A stretch of DNA of 64,000 nucleotides from contig CP001769.1 of the NCBI GenBank assembly GCA_000024525.1, positions 1,908,001 to 1,972,000 of the forward strand, in the 5' to 3' direction. Below the pieces are notes generated by a model. The model was not told the origin of the DNA, made no database searches, and saw nothing but the letters and a program-made list of their open reading frames with translations. The position numbers were made by a program, and so were the translations under genes. The stretch comes from Spirosoma linguale DSM 74 (GTDB lineage: Bacteria; Bacteroidota; Bacteroidia; Cytophagales; Spirosomataceae). Of the stretch, positions 43,575 to 51,813 are shown in pieces. Every line of letters begins with the position of its first letter. Position 1 is the stretch's first letter.

Positions 43575-43984
43575 TGGAAGATATTGAACCCCGCATCCGT
43601 CCGCTGGTCGATGCCCTGAATAAAACCGGCCTGGTTCGCACATTCTCAAGCTGCGAAGGACATTTTTCGCCTGAAGAACAGACGCTAGTCGACCGAAATC
43701 ATGCCGAAGTCCGGTTCGTGCCTGCCGAGGGTGTTGGTGTTCCGGAGATTGACATGTTCATCGGGCGCATTTTAGCCCAATTCAAGTCAAGGCATGGGTT
43801 GCTACCGGTAAAGGTTACGGCTTACAAACTCTTTACGCCAATCGACGAAGAAAATGTTGAGGAAACGTACGTGTTTGACCTGCGGCCCTTCAACCGGTTC
43901 GACCCTCCCGACCGGAAACGGGCCGATGTGGACCGGGCTATCACACAGGTTGTTCGATTGATGTTATCGGAAAGCTACCGCTGA
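43574..43984 (+). CDS. Unrecognised small protein, coupled to the MFS gene
   Basis: 136 residues starting in the TGATG overlap with the MFS stop. It begins MEDIEPRIRPLVDALNKTG and carries the segment FSSCEGHFSPEEQ, then KVTAYKLFTPIDEENVEETYVFD and a helical C-terminus DVDRAITQVVRLML. The FSSCEGH stretch has a Cys-Glu-Gly-His motif that could bind metal or nucleotide, but no family is assigned. Tight coupling to the transporter suggests related expression. Its 3' end overlaps the 3' end of the opposite-strand HlyD gene by 10 bases. Confidence 0.7.
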   Translation: MEDIEPRIRPLVDALNKTGLVRTFSSCEGHFSPEEQTLVDRNHAEVRFVPAEGVGVPEIDMFIGRILAQFKSRHGLLPVKVTAYKLFTPIDEENVEETYVFDLRPFNRFDPPDRKRADVDRAITQVVRLMLSESYR

Positions 43985-45280
43985 TAAAAAACTCTTCGTA
44001 TTTGATAAAAGACTCGTTCAATCAAACGTAAATCCTCGGTAATAATTTCGGCTGACGCTTCCATGCCGGTTTTGTACGTTAAATTCCTAGCATAGTTCGT
44101 TTGTAAACCATTGGGTAGCTCAACAATTGCCGGAAAATAAGTATTGTCCTGTGATGGAATTTGGGAAATTCCGCCTATTTTTCCTTCTACGGCACCAAAC
44201 TCTTCAAAGGGATAACCCTGAAATTTTATTAAAACTTTCTGCCCTTTTTTTACTCGTCCAAAGTTAGCCTGAGGAATTCTTAGTTCGCCAAAGTACTGCT
44301 TTGCATTTGTCGAGCCTACATACATAATCTCTGAACCACTTCTTAAGAGCTGATTTTCTTCTAAAATCGATGTGAAATGGATTTGTCCCGAAATGGGCGC
44401 TTCCAATAAATAACGCTTTTTCCAGTCGGTAACTGCACTTATCAATGTATTTGTTGCTTGCCTGAATAGGTTTTTTTGTTCTACTGCCTGCCTGTCTGTC
44501 TAACTCAGTAAGTTCTCTGCGCTTTTGCGTTTGAGCCGTCGAATTAGTTGTAAGAGATACTGCTATCTGTTTAATAGGTAGACGTTTAGCAATAAATTTA
44601 CTTTCCTCACGTTGATAATCGAGCGTCGAAATAACTTTGTCTGCATATAGTTTTTTGTGAATGTTAAACTCTTTTTGCGCGAGTTCAGCATCCTGATCAT
44701 AAACATTATATTGCTGTGAAAGCTGGTTCTGAGTGTTCAACAGGTCTGCTAATTCTTGATTTAAAAACGTCTTTCGTTTTATATAATAACCATTTGAAAA
44801 TAACGCAAGAGTTTGAATATACGATTGCATGAAATTTTCATACGGTGTCTGTAATTCGCCTAATTCCTGAAATTGTTCTACAGGGAAATCATTCAATTTT
44901 TCGAAATGATTAGAACTGATCAACTGCTGTAAATGATGCAACCGCTTCATTAATTGTAAAACTTGAGTATGGTTAGCCGTAGATTCCAAATAACCGATAG
45001 TTTGCCTAGCCACAACGAATTGGTTATCATGGACAAATAGCCTCACGAGTCGGCTATCAGTTCTACTAATAATGGGCTTTGGTGCATTTTGGGTTGTTAG
45101 ACGAAAACCAGACACAACAACAGTTGGATAATGAATAAGCCAACTAAGGAATATACCTGCCAGGACGGCGAGAAAAATAACTGTAATACCCCAACGTATA
45201 AGCCAATTGGGGATTTGGCCGATAAAATCCCGAATTGCTTCACTTTGAGTCTCTACCTCTTCCAATTCTGTAGCTTCCAT
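43975..45280 (-). pseudogene. HlyD-type membrane fusion protein interrupted by a frameshift
   Basis: The gene starts at ATG 45280, in a TAATG overlap with the ABC exporter. Frame 1 carries residues 1-264: a cytosolic tail, a transmembrane helix (about 31-50), a first lipoyl-like part and a long coiled coil. After Ala264 (44491-44489) the frame runs into unrelated sequence, while the next frame continues EQKNLFRQATNTLISAVTDW, YLLEAPISGQIHF and the beta-barrel end to a stop at 43975. Removing one base or four bases at 44485-44500 restores one 433-434-residue HlyD protein. It should join the ABC exporter to an outer-membrane channel. Possible explanations are phase variation, a recent mutation or a sequence error. 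Confidence 0.85.
44485..44500 (-). repeat. Tetranucleotide repeat at the frameshift
   Basis: On the plus strand TGCC-TGCC-TGTC-TGTC, that is four tetramer units of the form TGYC, inside the HlyD gene exactly where the frame breaks. A run of seven T (44471-44477; seven A on the coding strand) lies 7 bases further into the gene. Either could cause slippage. Confidence 0.85.
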
Positions 45281-47487
45281 TAGTTGCCAAGCTCTAATTG
45301 ATTTTTAACTAAGCTGTAGTAGTTCCCTTTTTGGTTAACTAATTCGAGGTGAGTCCCGCGTTCAACAATCTCTCCTTTGTCAAGTACAATAATTTGATCA
45401 GCTGCTTTTACCGTACTCAGCCGGTGAGCTACAATAATCACTGTTCTATTTTTGAAAAAGCTATCCAGGTTCTTCATGATAACCGATTCATTATTGGCGT
45501 CCAAAGCACTGGTTGCTTCATCAAAAAGAATGAATGCGGGATCTTTGTAAACCGCTCGGGCGATCAATATCCTTTGCTTCTGCCCACCGCTTAACCCTGT
45601 TCCGCTGGAGCCAATTCGTGTGTTAAACCCATTCGGCAGACTTTCTATAAACTCTTCAATGTTTGCAATGCTTACGGCTTCTCGTAGCTTTTTTCGGCCA
45701 ATTAACCCATTGGAGTCTGACTCACTCACATTTCGCGAAATTGAATCCGAAAAAATATACCCTTCCTGCATAACGACTCCACACTGGCTACGCCAAAAAT
45801 CATAGCTGATGTTTTTTAAATTACTATTGCCAATATGAATTTGGCCTTGAACCGGTTCGTAAAATTTTAACAGTAGCTTTAATAAAGTTGTTTTGCCACT
45901 GCCACTTGCCCCTACAATGGCCGTAACTTTTCCTTCGGGAACCGTAAAACTGATATTTTTCAATACTAATTCAGAACTACTGCTACCGTATCTGTAGCTT
46001 ACGTTATCGAAGGAAATAGTTCGCTCGGTTGGTAGTTCATAAATCATTGTGTTAACCGTAGACTCTTCGTCGTCTTTATCATGAATTTCGGTCAATCTGC
46101 CCAAACTTAATTTTGCATCCTGATACGTTCTAATGAAGGCAATAAAATTGTTGATGGGCACATTCATCTGACCAACAATGTATTGAACGGATAGCATCGA
46201 GCCAAGAGTAATATGGCCATCAATTACTGATTTTGCGGCAACAAAACTGATTAGAATATTTTTGACTTCGTTGAGAAAACGCCCACCCTCATTTTGCGTT
46301 TGAGAAAGAGCCATACTACGGATGTTTAATTTAAATAAACGGGCCTGAATGGCTTCCCACTCCCAGCGTCGTCGTTTTTCAGACCCATTGAGTTTTATTT
46401 CCTGCATTCCGTTGATGAGCTGTATCGCACTGCTCTGGTTACCGGCAGCCTGGTCGAAATACCGATAATCGATTTCGGCACGTTGTTTTAAAAACAACAA
46501 GACCCAGACCATATACAGGCCCGATCCGAGGAGGAAAATGAAAAATAGCTGGGCATTGAAATAGAAAAGAATCGACCCGAAAATTAGGAAGGAGACAGCC
46601 GAAAAAAGTACGTCCAGCGTAGTGGCTGATAAAAAAGCCTGGATGCGATTGTGATCCTGAATCCGTTGTAAAATATCACCAGTTCCTTTCGAATCGAAAA
46701 AGGCTATAGGTAGCCGCATTAGCTTCATCATGAAGTCGGAGAGCATACGCAGGTTTACCCGGCTTGTCACATGCAGCAAAATCCAACTGCGCAGTACGTT
46801 GACTCCGGTCTGGGAAATGAATAAGACCAACTGAGCAATCAGTACCAGGTAAATGAAATTGAGATTGCGGGTATTAATCCCTGTATCGACAATTTGCTGG
46901 GTTAAAAAAGGTAAGGCTAATTGCAGTAAGCTGATTGTTAATAGGCTAAGAAAGAGTTGCAGGCCATATCGGTTATACGGTCGAAAATAGCGTAACAAAA
47001 ATCCGCTAAATGATTTCTTGTTCGCTTTAGGAGTATTCTCTTGCTCATAAAACCGGAGTGTTGGCTCAAACAGTAGCAAGACCCCTTCTGAGTCGTCTGA
47101 AATAGTTTTTTCAGGAATCCATCCCTTCAAAAACTCCTGTTTAGTATGCGTCAGCAAGCCGTGGCCGGGGTCGGCGACAACTACTTTTGTTGGTGTTGCT
47201 TCATACACCACCACAAAATGCCGTTGCCGCCAGTGCGCAATACAGGGCAACGGAATTTGCTCGGCCAGGGTATCGTATTGAGCATTTAACGCCAGTGTAC
47301 TAAACCCAATTCGCTCGGCGGCATCGGCAAGCCCACCCATAGTGGTACCGTCGCGGGCCAAATTGGCTATTTCCCGAAGATAAGCGGCATCTAACGACTT
47401 GCCATGAAACTTACTAATCATCCGTAGGCACGTAGGCCCACAATCCATCAGGTCGTACTGACGGTAAAAGGGATACTTTTTTGCCAA
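45280..47487 (-). CDS. Peptidase C39-containing ABC exporter
   Basis: 735 residues. The N-terminal C39 peptidase has its Gln10, catalytic Cys16 (DCGPTCL), His90 (RQRHFVVVYE) and Asp106 (VADPGHG). Then follow six membrane helices (about 160-440) and an ATPase domain with the Walker A GASGSGKTTLL, the LSGGQKQR signature and the DEATSALD Walker B region. Such exporters cut double-glycine leaders and export the peptide. The precursor gene at 51041 has such a GG leader, which is strong context. The gene is 9 bases after the upstream MBL gene and overlaps HlyD by one base. Confidence 0.95.
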   Translation of the reverse strand: MAKKYPFYRQYDLMDCGPTCLRMISKFHGKSLDAAYLREIANLARDGTTMGGLADAAERIGFSTLALNAQYDTLAEQIPLPCIAHWRQRHFVVVYEATPTKVVVADPGHGLLTHTKQEFLKGWIPEKTISDDSEGVLLLFEPTLRFYEQENTPKANKKSFSGFLLRYFRPYNRYGLQLFLSLLTISLLQLALPFLTQQIVDTGINTRNLNFIYLVLIAQLVLFISQTGVNVLRSWILLHVTSRVNLRMLSDFMMKLMRLPIAFFDSKGTGDILQRIQDHNRIQAFLSATTLDVLFSAVSFLIFGSILFYFNAQLFFIFLLGSGLYMVWVLLFLKQRAEIDYRYFDQAAGNQSSAIQLINGMQEIKLNGSEKRRRWEWEAIQARLFKLNIRSMALSQTQNEGGRFLNEVKNILISFVAAKSVIDGHITLGSMLSVQYIVGQMNVPINNFIAFIRTYQDAKLSLGRLTEIHDKDDEESTVNTMIYELPTERTISFDNVSYRYGSSSSELVLKNISFTVPEGKVTAIVGASGSGKTTLLKLLLKFYEPVQGQIHIGNSNLKNISYDFWRSQCGVVMQEGYIFSDSISRNVSESDSNGLIGRKKLREAVSIANIEEFIESLPNGFNTRIGSSGTGLSGGQKQRILIARAVYKDPAFILFDEATSALDANNESVIMKNLDSFFKNRTVIIVAHRLSTVKAADQIIVLDKGEIVERGTHLELVNQKGNYYSLVKNQLELGN

Positions 47488-47496
47488 AGTAGTCGG

Positions 47497-48981
47497 TTAT
47501 TTTAGTTCGACCGATTTGCGTAAATCGTCTACAGTGCCAAAAGCGGCTTGCCCATTCAAGGGCCAGGCGGTATAAATTTTGTCGACAGCAAGATTGTTTT
47601 TGCTGATCAGATTATAAACAGCTTTACCCCGCTCGCCAGCGGGCGAAATCCGGCCATCTACCCGGAAGAACAACAAATCGCCGGACCAGAGTAATTTCTG
47701 TTGTGGAAAATAGAACGCCAAATGCTCTGCCGTATGGCTGGTGCCTTTACCAATTTCATAGGCAACAACTTCCGTTTGCTTGTCTTTATACGTTTCCTGA
47801 CCATCAAGCGGTACAAAGTCGAAGGTATAGTTTTGTCCGTTTGTCGTATTGGCGTTACCCAGCGTATGAGTGTTTGTCAGTAACTTTTTAAAATAGGCTT
47901 CATTACCTGCTGTTGTCACAAACATGACGGGCAAATCAGCGAAGGCACGAATGCCGCCCGCATGGTCGGGGTGGTGGTGGGTAAGAAAAACCTGACGAAG
48001 TGGCTTTTGAGGGTAGCGCTTTTGAATTTCGCTGAGAATCTGCTGGTTTAAACCAATACCGGAAGGGCTTTCAAACAAGGCTACATGATCGCTAAACTGA
48101 ACGACCAGTACTTTATTATTTTGTGACATGATCTTGATCAAATCAATGTTTGGCGCAATCGTTTCAACCACCAATGACTCACTTTTTTGGTTGATCTCTG
48201 CCAGTTTAGTGCGAAATGCCACCGGAACCCACCGAAGCTGTAGATCGCTGGTATCGGATTTAATGCCAGAACGAATCTCTGTATACGTCATTTCGCGTTC
48301 CAGGATGCCAAATTCATAATCTGACCGGCTGGTTGGTACTTTAAGTCCATTCTTATCTTCGTAGCCTTTGTATTCGCTACAGAAGGATACATCCCCATAG
48401 CGGTCGTTATACACTATTTTTTCTACCTTCTCCACCAAAAAGGTTTTTGAGTTAATGTAGATGGTTACGGCATCGTTGGGTTTGTCGCTGAATGAAAGCA
48501 GGCTATGTTTTCCCTGCTCGCCCAGGTAGCGTAATGACTGCCGATTGGCATAGGCAAACTGCAACAGTTTAATGGGCAAAGCTTTGGCCGCTTCATAACG
48601 AAATCCCTGAGCGTTGGACTTGACCAGCGTTCGGTCAAAATAGCCAATTGAGTAGAGCGAGTCCGATTTGCTTACGGAGGCACTGATATAGGAACCTCCG
48701 TTATTCTGAATCACACTACGTACATAAGAAACCTGTTCCGGCTCGAAATAGGCCAGTTTCTCTTCAACGGGTATATCTTTTGTTTTTTCGGGCACATCAT
48801 AATGACCCAAATTGTGAATTGTGCCGCTTGTGGTCAGCAGCAGACCCGCTGGAACGTCTTTGCCAGTGGCCGAAATGGCTTTTTGTAAAACCGATAGCGC
48901 TTTTTGATAATTTGTGATGGTCTGCGCCCACACGGGGACTGTGCCTGCCAATAGGGTCGTTAGTAAATAAATAAATCTCAT
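47497..48981 (-). CDS. Exported metallo-beta-lactamase-fold protein
   Basis: 494 residues. A signal peptide (MRFIYLLTTLLAGTVPVWAQ) is followed by an about 270-residue N-domain without a recognised family, then an MBL-fold domain with THHHPDHAGGIRAF (His335, His337, Asp339, His340), a GTSHTAEHLAFYFP His and the SGDLLFF Asp. It is therefore a zinc hydrolase of the glyoxalase II-like type in the periplasm or outer face. It overlaps the upstream gene by four bases (ATGA), so it belongs to the RiPP-like operon. Peptide processing, hydrolase-based self-protection or a housekeeping role are all possible. Confidence 0.87.
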   Translation of the reverse strand: MRFIYLLTTLLAGTVPVWAQTITNYQKALSVLQKAISATGKDVPAGLLLTTSGTIHNLGHYDVPEKTKDIPVEEKLAYFEPEQVSYVRSVIQNNGGSYISASVSKSDSLYSIGYFDRTLVKSNAQGFRYEAAKALPIKLLQFAYANRQSLRYLGEQGKHSLLSFSDKPNDAVTIYINSKTFLVEKVEKIVYNDRYGDVSFCSEYKGYEDKNGLKVPTSRSDYEFGILEREMTYTEIRSGIKSDTSDLQLRWVPVAFRTKLAEINQKSESLVVETIAPNIDLIKIMSQNNKVLVVQFSDHVALFESPSGIGLNQQILSEIQKRYPQKPLRQVFLTHHHPDHAGGIRAFADLPVMFVTTAGNEAYFKKLLTNTHTLGNANTTNGQNYTFDFVPLDGQETYKDKQTEVVAYEIGKGTSHTAEHLAFYFPQQKLLWSGDLLFFRVDGRISPAGERGKAVYNLISKNNLAVDKIYTAWPLNGQAAFGTVDDLRKSVELK

Positions 48982-50138
48982 GCAAAAGGTGTTTTAGGGA
49001 GTGGGTTAAGGAGGGCGAATAAATCGTATTGAAAGGTGTACGGTTGGTTACTATATTTAAATCCAGCCAGTGCCGATTGGTACTTTTGATAGATATACGC
49101 ATAGCCAGCCGCAAACTGACGGTGATAGTCCATACCGGCCTCGGTCAGAATGCTGGGGTTATTCATATTTGTCAGATCAATATTGAATTTGTAGATATAA
49201 AATCCGATGCGCCCCAGGGCCTCATGCTGTAATACCTTCGAAAGGGCAGATGTAGCCTCAAGAACGCTATCCATCGAATGTAGAATGGTTGTATACGTGA
49301 ATAACCCATGAAAAGCACCGTAGACCGTACGGGTATCCCAGGAAGCTTTTGTGAATTCGTTGATCGGAAAGTCTTTAGCAACATGTAAGTACGTTTCCGT
49401 ATCTAGCGTTAAGGCATTGAAAATAACATGGCCGCACTGATGGGCTATATCGTCGATAAAAAAGACGGGTGTTTGTGGTTTATTTTCTACATTAAAATAA
49501 GCCGTACCATGATGCATGATACCCGCAAACGAATGATGTTCTGGCGGACTACTGAAAACAACAAACTCACGCGTAACGGATTCAATTAATTGCCAAAAAT
49601 CAGGCAACTTGGTTTGGAAGAAATGAACCGCCTGAAATAAAGGTTTCTGATATTTCTTTGCAGTTACTTCCACCGATTCATAGAACGAAATAGCTTGCCT
49701 ATGCCCTAATAAATCAGTTGGGTGCCAGCAAAGCCGAATTGTGCTATTGGGTAAGGATTGGTTGGGAATAAGGCCAGTCGTAAGTTGTGCCGAATTTATA
49801 GTAAACGGTTCAAATGGATTAGCTCTGATATATCCTAGATTAGGCAAATTGATCAGACCAAATCGATCTGCTCTGACGGTTAATAAATCAGGTCGGTTAT
49901 TGTTTGAAATATAACCAACTAGGCATTGAGTTAAAGGTATAGTTACTGCTTTGTCAATATCAGATAAGAAATGGCAAAACAGGGTTGGCTCTAAAAAAAT
50001 AGAATCATTATCATAATCAAGCAGTTCAAATAATGTTGGGTCTGACTGATACATTGCCATGCGGATTGTATCAGAGAGGATGGATTGATTAGCATTGTAG
50101 AATTCTTTATTAGGTATGGAGTATTTCAAAATCTTCAT
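48978..50138 (-). CDS. HExxH-type 2-oxoglutarate peptide beta-hydroxylase-like protein (HQCGH variant)
   Basis: 386 residues, cytosolic, no signal. The motif FIDDIAHQCGHVIF (His233, His237) sits where the family has HExxH, and a second conserved segment TRTVYGAFHGLFTYTTI (His277) resembles the later His motif of the family annotated as aKG-HExxH-type peptide beta-hydroxylase. An upstream SFAGIMHHGTAYFN strand also fits. The Glu of HExxH is Gln here, which argues against protease chemistry but not against iron binding by the two His. The family call is from memory of motif patterns. It is 10 bases after the CPBP stop and overlaps the MBL gene by four bases. Confidence 0.6.
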   Translation of the reverse strand: MKILKYSIPNKEFYNANQSILSDTIRMAMYQSDPTLFELLDYDNDSIFLEPTLFCHFLSDIDKAVTIPLTQCLVGYISNNNRPDLLTVRADRFGLINLPNLGYIRANPFEPFTINSAQLTTGLIPNQSLPNSTIRLCWHPTDLLGHRQAISFYESVEVTAKKYQKPLFQAVHFFQTKLPDFWQLIESVTREFVVFSSPPEHHSFAGIMHHGTAYFNVENKPQTPVFFIDDIAHQCGHVIFNALTLDTETYLHVAKDFPINEFTKASWDTRTVYGAFHGLFTYTTILHSMDSVLEATSALSKVLQHEALGRIGFYIYKFNIDLTNMNNPSILTEAGMDYHRQFAAGYAYIYQKYQSALAGFKYSNQPYTFQYDLFALLNPLPKTPFA

Positions 50139-50148
50139 ATGTTTGTCG

Positions 50149-50877
50149 TCATTGGTGTGTTAAGGCAATAGCGGTTAAGACAGAAATTGTATTCTTAGAA
50201 GCATGTATAAAAAAAGAATATATGATGCCATATTTGAGCCTGACATAACCAAGTATAATTCCTGAAAATATTTGTGATAAAGTTAGTAATGGAATATAAA
50301 GCAACAACTTTATATTTATTGGATAGTTAAGCAGGTGAGAGAGACCAAATAATAATATCGACATATAGAAAATAAATTTTGTATGCCTAAGCCAAAATAT
50401 TTCTATCATGGATTTAAGTTTTATGGATCTGTTTATTAAAATATAAAATAGTAGACCGAAGAGAATAGAAATAATGCTTCTAATAACTATATTAAAAACG
50501 TTTTCAAACGGAAATGCAATTGCCCCGCTCACCAAATAAAATATAAATGTCAGCATTAAGGTTAGATTTTTTAGAGAATATTTTAAAGAAACTCTAAATA
50601 ATATTTCTTCAAACATTGGAGCAAGTATAATAATTGTAAATATGATACTAAAAATATTTTTTTCGAAAAGCGCCGTGAGAGTTTCATTTTTAGGAATTAC
50701 AATGTTAAAATGACGACTTAGTATAAGTATTGTAGAACCTATAGTAATGTTGATTATATAGGAAAACAAAAAAATAACAACTGAATCTTTCAATGATTGT
50801 ATTGTATTAACATTATGTTTATTATTTAATTTGCCATTTTTTAAAAGAAAGAATATTTCATTTGTGAATATTTTCAT
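50149..50877 (-). CDS. CPBP family intramembrane protease
   Basis: 242 residues, mostly hydrophobic, clearly richer in Ile, Asn, Lys and Phe and in AT than neighbouring genes. The CPBP (Abi/CAAX) motifs are present: Glu90-Glu91-x3-Arg95 (EEILFR), His181 (FGLSHLLN) and His225 (SFFIHA), with about seven or eight spans. In peptide clusters such proteins serve as leader proteases or immunity proteins; which applies here is unknown. It starts near the 68-bp palindrome and lies between the precursor gene and the hydroxylase-like gene. Confidence 0.88.
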   Translation of the reverse strand: MKIFTNEIFFLLKNGKLNNKHNVNTIQSLKDSVVIFLFSYIINITIGSTILILSRHFNIVIPKNETLTALFEKNIFSIIFTIIILAPMFEEILFRVSLKYSLKNLTLMLTFIFYLVSGAIAFPFENVFNIVIRSIISILFGLLFYILINRSIKLKSMIEIFWLRHTKFIFYMSILLFGLSHLLNYPINIKLLLYIPLLTLSQIFSGIILGYVRLKYGIIYSFFIHASKNTISVLTAIALTHQ

Positions 50878-50914
50878 TATTTTCTTATTTAAACGAAATG
50901 AATCTTATTGTTTC

Positions 50915-50982
50915 AATTTTCTCTGCTGTCAGTTAAATTAATGAAAATATTTTCATTAATTTAACTGACAGCAGAGAAAATT
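50915..50982. repeat. 68-base perfect palindrome
   Basis: Bases 50915-50948 and 50949-50982 are exact reverse complements over 34 bp with no spacer. The sequence is AT-rich with a GCTGTCAG/CTGACAGC core. It lies between the precursor peptide gene and the CPBP gene. As RNA it gives a very long hairpin, which may separate the abundant peptide mRNA from the enzyme genes. Confidence 0.9.
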
Positions 50983-50987
50983 TATTA

Positions 50988-51035
50988 ATATCTAGCTTCA
51001 TTGTGATATACATAAGTTACAATAAAGCTAGATAT
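50988..51035 (-). terminator. Hairpin following the precursor peptide gene
   Basis: Arms 50988-51004 and 51019-51035 pair at 16 of 17 positions with a 14-base loop, starting 5 bases past the precursor stop. It is followed on the minus strand by an AT-rich stretch and then the 68-base palindrome, so the two structures act in series between peptide and enzyme genes. Confidence 0.7.
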
Positions 51036-51040
51036 GATTT

Positions 51041-51208
51041 TTAGGTGTGGAAAGGTGTGATTTCTAAAAAGAGAAGAAATAATTGCCAAGCGTCTTCACA
51101 AGTTTGGCAATGGCAATCGCCAACAACACCACCTTTAATTGCCTCTAAATTATTAGTAACCTGTTGCGCTGATTGCTCTTTCAGTTCAGCTAACGATAAT
51201 CGCTTCAT
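51041..51208 (-). CDS. RiPP precursor peptide with double-glycine leader
   Basis: 55 residues from ATG 51208; an upstream in-frame TTG would add five residues (MAQVR). The leader, residues 1-27, is MKRLSLAELKEQSAQQVTNN followed by LEAIKGG, a typical Bacteroidota GG leader with LSLxEL and LExIKGG segments. Cleavage after Gly27 gives a 28-residue core: VVGDCHCQTCEDAWQ and then LFLLFLEITPFHT. The core has three Cys (core positions 5, 7 and 10), several Asp/Glu, a Trp and a hydrophobic second half. The C39 exporter in the same cluster can cut this leader. No sequence-identical known peptide is recalled. Confidence 0.8.
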   Translation of the reverse strand: MKRLSLAELKEQSAQQVTNNLEAIKGGVVGDCHCQTCEDAWQLFLLFLEITPFHT

Positions 51209-51237
51209 GCGTACTTGTGCCAAAGGGAATAGTTATT

Positions 51238-51251
51238 TTGCGATATTGCAA
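51238..51251. promoter_or_regulatory. Candidate operator dyad in the divergent region
   Basis: TTGC, six bases, GCAA at 51238-51251, 30 bases before the precursor start. The octamer AGGTGACT also occurs twice, at 51294-51301 and 51358-51365, in the region between the precursor and the XRE gene. Either set could be bound by the XRE protein. Evidence is sequence symmetry only. Confidence 0.3.
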
Positions 51252-51411
51252 GGTTGCTTCGGCAGGAGCAAATATGATGGTATCGGTAAGCAAAGGTGAC
51301 TAAAAACATGATAAAATAAGGCAGAATACTTGATTTGTTTAATCATATTTTTTCTATAGGTGACTTACTTGTGCCTCATCCGTCAGATTCGATTAGTTAA
51401 ACTACATCATT

Positions 51412-51813
51412 ATGACCTTTGGAACGATATTGCGTAAAAACCGGGAAAAGAAGCGACTCTCTCAAAAAGAGGTGGCAGAACACATTGGCATAGCACAGGC
51501 TACTTACCACAATTGGGAAACAGAACAGTCGAGTTTTCGAGTAGAGTATTTGCCCAAATTAGCCGAGGTATTTGACGTGGCTATGGGAGATTTAATGCCT
51601 GAAGGCACTACGTTGAAACTGATGAACAATCAGCATCAGAAGAACCACGATAGATCAGTAGTAGGTTTTGATGTTACTATAAACGAGTCGCGTGAGCTAT
51701 ATACAGAGTTGGTGAATAGTAAGGATGAAATAATCCGATTGTTAAAGGAAGAAAATACATTGTTAAAAGTTCGTAATGCACAATTAGATGAAAACCAGAA
51801 AAGAGATGCTTAA
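51412..51813 (+). CDS. XRE family helix-turn-helix regulator
   Basis: 133 residues. The N-terminal HTH_3 domain is MTFGTILRKNREKKRLSQKE, then VAEHIGIAQATYHNWE, to about residue 65; a C-terminal coiled coil (about 95-130, ELVNSKDEIIRLLKEENTLLK) probably mediates dimerisation. It is divergent from the peptide cluster across a 203-base gap and is the natural candidate regulator of that cluster, though this is inferred from position. It ends with a strong terminator. Confidence 0.88.
   Translation: MTFGTILRKNREKKRLSQKEVAEHIGIAQATYHNWETEQSSFRVEYLPKLAEVFDVAMGDLMPEGTTLKLMNNQHQKNHDRSVVGFDVTINESRELYTELVNSKDEIIRLLKEENTLLKVRNAQLDENQKRDA

Follow-up and report, generated by a model that had tools for sequence, protein, structure and literature searches.

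How a peptide is matured by a gene cluster that holds none of the classical maturases is the question raised by a locus of Spirosoma linguale DSM 74, which lies in a window of 64,000 nucleotides (contig CP001769.1, positions 1,908,001 to 1,972,000, of a host assembly of 8.49 Mb in 9 contigs; coordinates below are those of the window). The locus is a minus-strand unit encoding a precursor peptide with a Gly-Gly (GG) leader, a CPBP membrane protein, a 386-aa protein, a metallo-β-lactamase (MBL)-fold protein, a C39 peptidase-ABC exporter and an HlyD adaptor. This order and these strands, proposed in an earlier sequence-only reading, are borne out, as is its statement that the set lacks LanB, LanM, radical SAM and YcaO genes, no such family match being given by the window's proteins. 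A GG-leader precursor beside a C39-ABC exporter is the arrangement of a GG/C39 cluster for a ribosomally synthesized and post-translationally modified peptide (RiPP). LanB and LanC, the pair expected in a class I lanthipeptide unit, were both absent from the window's proteins in Pfam and NCBIfam scans, and a lanthipeptide identity was rejected for want of a LanB match. The reading favoured here, at a probability of roughly 0.6, is that the unit makes a RiPP on which the 386-aa protein, a stand-alone oxygenase with an HQxxH motif, would hydroxylate or oxidise a Cys-His pair of the core, followed by cutting and export through C39 and HlyD.

Fold and motif of the HQxxH protein

The 386-aa protein (48978-50138, minus strand) is a predicted α-ketoglutarate (α-KG)/Fe oxygenase acting on the precursor. 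It falls into no Pfam family at cut-off in the Pfam scan and has no sequence match in the PDB, and a profile of the enzyme gave only two chance matches among PDB sequences (E 0.29 and 0.99). Against TIGR04267 (aKG-HExxH-type peptide β-hydroxylase) it scores 22.9 bits, below the cut-off of 40, and because of this score it is filed as a sister branch of that family; TIGR04267 matches of 13.9-27.8 bits occur in at least four of the ten relatives scanned, and the scanned copies of the branch that are unfused to other domains reach no NCBIfam or Pfam cut-off. A TIGR04267 profile search of the phylum gave hits in 0 of 296 genomes, but it also missed the window's own copy, so the result is no true zero for distant members; a separate search of the host genome recovered the window copy (E 8e-5). 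Alignment by hhalign to six TIGR04267 members scoring over the cut-off, from two Streptomyces genomes, gave a probability of 94.2 (E 1.2e-7).

Structure prediction agrees with these distant matches. The AlphaFold model, built from a 51-copy alignment, has a mean predicted local distance difference test score of 94.8 and a predicted template modelling (TM) score of 0.94, and a Foldseek search of the PDB found α-KG HExxH-type proteins in all five of its matches at E<=0.001, the sixth match having an E of 0.93. Four of the five are chains of 8s5f, the HExxH domain of ChlBH (E 9.9e-10 to 4.3e-9, probability 1.00), whose fold the model shares with TM scores of 0.53-0.57 by query length and root-mean-square deviations (rmsd) of 7.0-7.6; the remaining one is 22ob (SjiH-Ni, E 7.1e-8). 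As modelled, the fold is that of the peptide-modifying α-KG-HExxH oxygenases, in line with the ‘hydroxylase-like’ label of the sequence-only reading. The HExxH motif assigned in that reading is actually HQCGH (residues 233-237, 49428-49442, minus strand).

Gln is the usual residue of the branch at this place. HQxxH is found in 47 of 51 enzyme copies, the other four being degenerate, in an alignment (A2) of rows chosen from the longer copies in the window and in relatives’ loci L020-L072, excluding among others L045, L061, L063, L065, L066, L070, L071, L073 and L074. One of the two enzyme search patterns contained HQ and the other the stretch around H277, so both counts are biased; even so, among distinct loci outside the HQ pattern that retain a motif, all 15 carry HQ. 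Canonical HE is found in all six Streptomyces members over the cut-off, in ChlH and in SjiH (HEFQH). Among genomes found later, G587 encodes an enzyme with HQCAH and G599 one with HEGSH; HQxxH as an absolute rule was rejected on account of the latter, which leaves Gln a rule and not a law.

The two motif histidines, H233 and H237, and an arginine, R270, align with the canonical enzymes; R270 is kept in 50 of 51 rows of A2 and H277, seven residues behind it, in 45 of 51. At the H277 place, His is present in ChlH and three of the six Streptomyces members, Gln in SjiH and two, and Phe in one, and because of this variation among canonical members any set of metal ligands for the HQxxH protein is a guess. 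Degenerate second copies, each beside an intact copy, occur in four loci (L049, L050, L051, L055); all lack Q234, H237 and H277 and three also lack H233, a joint loss expected of ligands lost together. Use of a metal and α-KG by the intact proteins is predicted. HQGGH domains were also seen in two Streptomyces proteins of similar length (L073:5477-7741 and L074:8171-10462), with no Cys-His precursor seen nearby; in L073 the domain is fused to an ArgE/DapE-type M20 deacylase domain.

A Cys-His pair in otherwise variable precursors

The precursor gene (51041-51208, minus strand; ATG start, with an alternative TTG start at 51223) encodes 55 aa, comprising a 27-aa leader ending in Gly-Gly and a 28-aa core starting VVGDCH, in which Cys-His (residues 32-33, codons at 51110-51115, minus strand) stands four residues behind GG. 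Across 25 aligned precursors only L4, G26 and G27 of the leader and C32 and H33 are invariant, no other core residue being fixed. Exactly four residues separate GG from CH in 51 of 61 precursor open reading frames (ORFs), all chosen by a pattern containing CH, and core length across precursors ranges from 11 to 63 residues. The scanned precursors belong to no Pfam or NCBIfam family. In the host genome the precursor profile finds this site at E 1e-18 and its next match at E 1.5. A chance ORF was rejected in view of recovery by a leader profile, conservation across the 25 precursors and co-occurrence across genomes. In two relatives (L052:1821-3050, L034:943-1580), one HQxxH gene is preceded by four to six precursor ORFs in a row, alike in their leaders but not in their cores.

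Co-occurrence of enzyme and precursor was counted over 59 enzyme loci, the window included, after removal of five duplicates (L026, L029, L036, L037, L038); L015 and L018, probably the two parts of a single cluster in one genome, were counted apart. Under a strict rule (GG-x(0-10)-CH in an ORF 30-130 aa long, on the enzyme's strand and no more than 3.5 kb away), a precursor is present in 46 of the 59. Five further loci carry a small Cys-His ORF outside this rule: on the other strand in L047, about 5 kb away beside LanB in L014, and with Cys-His but no GG in L031, L046 and L063. As controls, 526 kb of far flank yielded three occurrences of the pattern, including the true L014 precursor, and the strand opposite the enzyme yielded three in its vicinity, including the L047 precursor. 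At E<=1e-4, a profile of the leader alone recovers 59 distinct ORFs from 47 loci, every one with GG..CH; two more ORFs at E 0.29-0.34, of the kind beside LanB in L064, are without it. Since its training leaders came from ORFs selected for CH, this profile is a strong but not fully independent test. Recovery of the same leader near the same enzyme in relatives marks the precursor as more than a chance ORF. The sequence-only reading had staked its RiPP assignment on enzyme homologues co-occurring with GG-leader peptides; they do so in most loci, which together with the fold supports the assignment.

The same association is seen across genomes. Among 291 genomes of the order, the enzyme is present in 8, and the precursor profile matches 14 at E<=0.01, 9 of them strongly (E<1e-11, a line set after viewing the list); all 8 enzyme genomes are among these 9 (hypergeometric 8e-15, relatedness ignored). 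In the ninth, G107, a Cys-His frame is found close to the end of a contig, next to a truncated CPBP-like gene, with no enzyme match in the assembly and no ATG, GTG or TTG start seen for the frame. The five weak matches (E 5e-5 to 9e-3) are all in genomes without an enzyme match; in four of these (L093, L094, L095, L097) a leader-like peptide has GG with no Cys-His immediately after it, though that of L093 has one 22 residues on, and in the fifth (L096) no leader match passed. A draw of 395 genomes from the phylum has the enzyme in at least 5 (few candidates per genome were scored), and the same 5 carry precursor matches at E<=3e-9, with one extra weak match in G091. The strong match of G599 is a lone precursor beside LanB genes (L118:7506-7736), 2 Mb from the enzyme, near which two weaker Cys-His precursors lie; G587 has two precursors near its enzyme, and in G454 the enzyme gene is in pieces. 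Relatives span Bacteroidota, Pseudomonadota and Planctomycetota, and none were found in viral contigs and plasmids.

Several observations point to the Cys-His pair as probably the target of the enzyme. No other part of the core is fixed, and the pair is kept when the export route seems to change: in all three Planctomycetota loci, small ORFs directly before the HQxxH gene (L031:9586-9912, L046:9507-9917, L063:9258-9683) carry Cys-His without GG, behind signals judged by eye to be twin-arginine-like, and end in CH..MR...GIWIPELVPVF.KLD, with a conserved GIWIPELVPVF tail. A zetaproteobacterial precursor (L057) has GG, CH and a similar GVWIKELVPVFQKMD tail and, judged by its sequence, forms a bridge between the two kinds. 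Retention of Cys-His without GG in Planctomycetota therefore argues that the pair follows the enzyme, not the exporter. The opposite proposal, in which Cys-His serves as a C39 or folding signal and the enzyme is a processing factor instead of an oxygenase, would suit a pair so often placed four residues behind the cut site, but no C39 gene was seen in these three loci, GG peptides of several neighbouring LanB-type units are without Cys-His, and Gln at the position of the zincin Glu argues against hydrolysis; it is considered very improbable.

What surrounds the pair also varies with the enzyme. Enzymes with HQG[SA]H, a subclade, go with Cys-His-Asp in 9 of 9 precursors, as against 0 of 49 with HQxGH (a leaderless L052 fragment was dropped from this tally, and the L018 and L019 precursors are without a readable enzyme motif). 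Precursors with CH-x3-CH occur in all four loci that hold an extra degenerate enzyme copy (L049, L050, L051, L055; three are Kordia), a second CH being found in only one other precursor (L012), where it is far off.

Proposed reaction and competing explanations

In the favoured reading, core tailoring has a single visible enzyme, the HQxxH protein. This stand-alone relative of the α-KG-HExxH oxygenases would bind the leader (LSLxxLK...) and oxidise Cys-His (core positions 5 and 6), β-carbon hydroxylation being the likeliest reaction and His the first choice; the peptide tail would be free to vary. The C39 domain would then cut behind Gly-Gly and the ABC/HlyD channel would export the peptide; trimming or finishing may fall to the exported MBL (in relatives to an amidohydrolase or a gluzincin-like protein, likewise exported), and CPBP would most likely shield the producer.

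Because Cys and His are invariant as a pair and a plain hydroxylase needs only one of them, the enzyme might do more than hydroxylate, forming a Cys-His thioether cross-link, a ring or another group. PMC12636437 cites an α-KG enzyme joining Cys to Tyr and reports that HEXXH enzymes can also cleave the backbone. Such an outcome is nevertheless judged rather unlikely, since the HExxH-enzyme reactions encountered in PMC12636437 and PMC13060819 are β-hydroxylation and backbone cleavage. A bolder proposal goes further, to an undescribed RiPP class in three phyla, with an xxxx-Cys-His head and an HQxxH oxygenase as its hallmarks and with GG/C39 export in some members and twin-arginine export in others, in which Cys-His is turned into a new joint group (a cross-link, a ring or a metal-binding warhead) on an otherwise hypervariable peptide; it is held as a tentative possibility, more doubtful than probable.

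The change of HExxH to HQxxH, the twin-arginine-like signals of Planctomycetota, which fit a folded or metal-bound cargo, and the exported hydrolases with metal motifs nearby would also suit a Cys-His pair that serves as a metal-binding head, with the HQxxH protein as a non-oxidising metal loader or guard and the peptide as a metal chelator or metal-bound toxin. Speaking against this, most copies retain the His-His-Arg-His set, each of the four degenerate copies is accompanied by an intact one, and G599 combines HEGSH with the same precursor type, which suggests that Glu and Gln are alternatives within one system; the metal-head explanation is regarded as quite unlikely.

A number of points weigh against oxidation of Cys-His by a stand-alone HQxxH oxygenase. 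Structural similarity is remote (TM scores of 0.53-0.59 by query length, rmsd values of 7.0-7.6, sequence identity of 14%), and is therefore one of overall fold, and the canonical Glu is replaced by Gln in the window enzyme. H277 is lost in two otherwise intact copies (Tyr in L041, Asn in the first copy of L055), it was part of one search pattern, and Gln stands in its place in SjiH and two Streptomyces members. The link between Cys-His-Asp and HQG[SA]H is probably a single evolutionary event on the tree, and a Ser or Ala motif occurs without Cys-His-Asp in G599 (HEGSH; CHY, CHW) and G587 (HQCAH; CHC twice), so that Ser or Ala at this place alone does not bring Asp. No precursor was found in L058, L073 and L074, nor in L015, L045, L065, L066 and L070, where the enzyme is at or near a contig end; the strict pattern contained CH, a selection that the training set of the leader profile shared. 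The HlyD gene of the window is broken as sequenced, leaving it without an intact adaptor, and export may therefore be dead in this genome. Cys-His precursors stand beside LanB in L014 and L118, and in L065 LanB lies directly behind HlyD on the same strand, so that a second enzyme, LanB, is conceivable in some relatives; in L014, LanB and LanC run in the opposite direction beside the precursor. The G599 and G587 exceptions and the LanB neighbours lowered confidence slightly, to the probability given at the outset.

Export genes, partners and relation to known systems

Downstream of the enzyme, the MBL-fold hydrolase gene (47497-48981, minus strand; PF00753, E 4e-14) overlaps the HQxxH stop by 4 nt at its start and encodes an HHHPDH motif behind a signal-peptide-like start, the latter judged by eye and in keeping with the exported MBL of the sequence-only reading. 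It is followed by the C39 peptidase-ABC exporter (45280-47487, minus strand; PF03412, E 1.5e-32, with PF00005 and PF00664) and by HlyD. The latter was likewise anticipated and the family is present, but the gene is split into two ORFs by a frameshift, giving an N-terminal part (44264-45280, minus strand; TIGR01843, E 2e-10, 40 bits, below cut-off) and a C-terminal part (43975-44445, minus strand; PF13437, E 3e-14). The HlyD proteins of all five relatives tried (L012, L021, L022, L024, L027) align in two frames, changing between about 44508 and 44453, a stretch that contains an A7 tract (44471-44477) along with short repeats of GACA/GGCA. The frame change may reflect a sequencing error, phase variation or recent decay. 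Most relatives’ loci that have HlyD encode an unbroken protein of about 420-480 aa.

At the head of the unit, a divergent XRE-type regulator (51412-51813, plus strand; HTH_3, E 5e-12) is found as called, and the C39, ABC, MBL, CPBP, HlyD (in its C-terminal piece) and HTH_3 assignments are all matched by Pfam. Overlapping or near-touching genes, described for the whole unit, hold from CPBP to HlyD but not for precursor and CPBP, which are 163 nt apart. This gap holds an inverted repeat of 17 bp immediately downstream of the precursor gene's stop codon (50988-51035, minus strand) and a perfect 34-bp palindrome (50915-50982, minus strand); the fold of 50870-51060 has a z of -13.3, with 0 of 200 shuffles equally stable. 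The palindrome as a genomic repeat was rejected, its arm occurring at this site only in the genome, allowing up to three mismatches. Among relatives, a hairpin of other sequence lies just 3' of the precursor in five of nine intervals, at four loci (L020 twice, L021, L022, L056); the intervals behind the precursor in L023, L024, L027 and L029 are without one. The palindrome would likely act as a partial terminator raising precursor mRNA abundance, or is perhaps an RNA-stabilising hairpin.

The CPBP/Rce1-like membrane protein (50149-50877, minus strand; EEILFR motif; PF02517, E 6e-7) was confirmed in its family; its reading as a protease did not hold to the same extent, an immunity protein being at least as likely. 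In bacteriocin loci, members of the CPBP family often confer immunity, and because of this role and of C39 cutting the leader at GG, a putative immunity function is preferred over that of leader protease. Within 7 kb of the enzyme, counts over the 59 loci being limited by contig ends, C39 is found in 41, HlyD in 40, MBL in 15, XRE in 12, CPBP in 10 and LanB in 5. An exported-looking amidohydrolase occurs in 6 of the 59, never with MBL, and an exported gluzincin-like protein in 11 (HE[LIV][VI]H with [ND]EG[IV]AT in six copies, HDLWH in six), a changing hydrolase set that suggests finishing or resistance steps outside the cytoplasm. In L020 (457-9060), two successive cassettes, each of precursor, HQxxH, CPBP and exported gluzincin-like genes, are followed by a single C39/HlyD after the second.

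Among known systems, the closest in structure is the α-KG-HExxH domain of ChlBH/ChlH (8s5f), reportedly described by Morishita et al. in 2024, which shares the fold of the HQxxH protein, aligns with it at the two motif histidines, the arginine and the histidine seven residues on, and acts on a RiPP precursor. By contrast, the HQxxH protein is unfused to radical SAM, has HQxxH in place of HExxH, is only 14% identical, and goes with a substrate that has Cys-His right behind GG and C39 export. SjiH (PDB 22nu, 22ob, named radical SAM core domain-containing protein), on which no paper was found in the literature searched, shares the fold (E 7.1e-8) but has HEFQH, with Gln at the H277 place and His five residues further on. 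GG-leader/C39 peptides of the LanB-type units beside L042, L058, L064, L068 and L072 resemble the precursor in the leader and differ in having no Cys-His head, yet the Cys-His precursors of L014 and L118 do adjoin LanB.

According to PMC12636437, PflC/PosC are likewise stand-alone α-KG HEXXH-kind enzymes in RiPP clusters; they differ in an NHLP leader without a typical GG site, an MNIO-nitroreductase partner, no protease gene nearby in the clusters as given there, and Gln hydroxylation with ARMD cleavage. PesO, in PMC13060819, is an α-KG-HExxH enzyme that β-hydroxylates a core residue, here Pro, and differs in its MNIO, asparagine-synthetase-like and M16 genes. The same text gives His, Asp, Phe, Gln and Pro as residues hydroxylated by published relatives, and cites 2024 for the first characterisation of α-KG-HExxH oxygenases. 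The sequence-only reading had supposed a little-described type: the literature searched, with few subscription papers within reach, holds nothing on this HQxxH branch or its peptides, but stand-alone α-KG-HExxH RiPP enzymes are published (PMC12636437, PMC13060819). The reaction class is known, the enzyme branch and precursor family are undescribed in the sources searched, and they would make a new class if the chemistry proved new.

Few members of the α-KG-HExxH oxygenases have been studied so far. The HQxxH branch adds one that stands alone, with no other maturase in sight in the window and a fixed two-residue target, probably Cys-His, beside a free tail. Its usual Glu-to-Gln swap, together with a single natural enzyme that keeps Glu in a cluster of this type, makes the role of the Glu directly testable, and the HQxxH protein and its precursor would offer a simple two-gene system for peptide oxidation.

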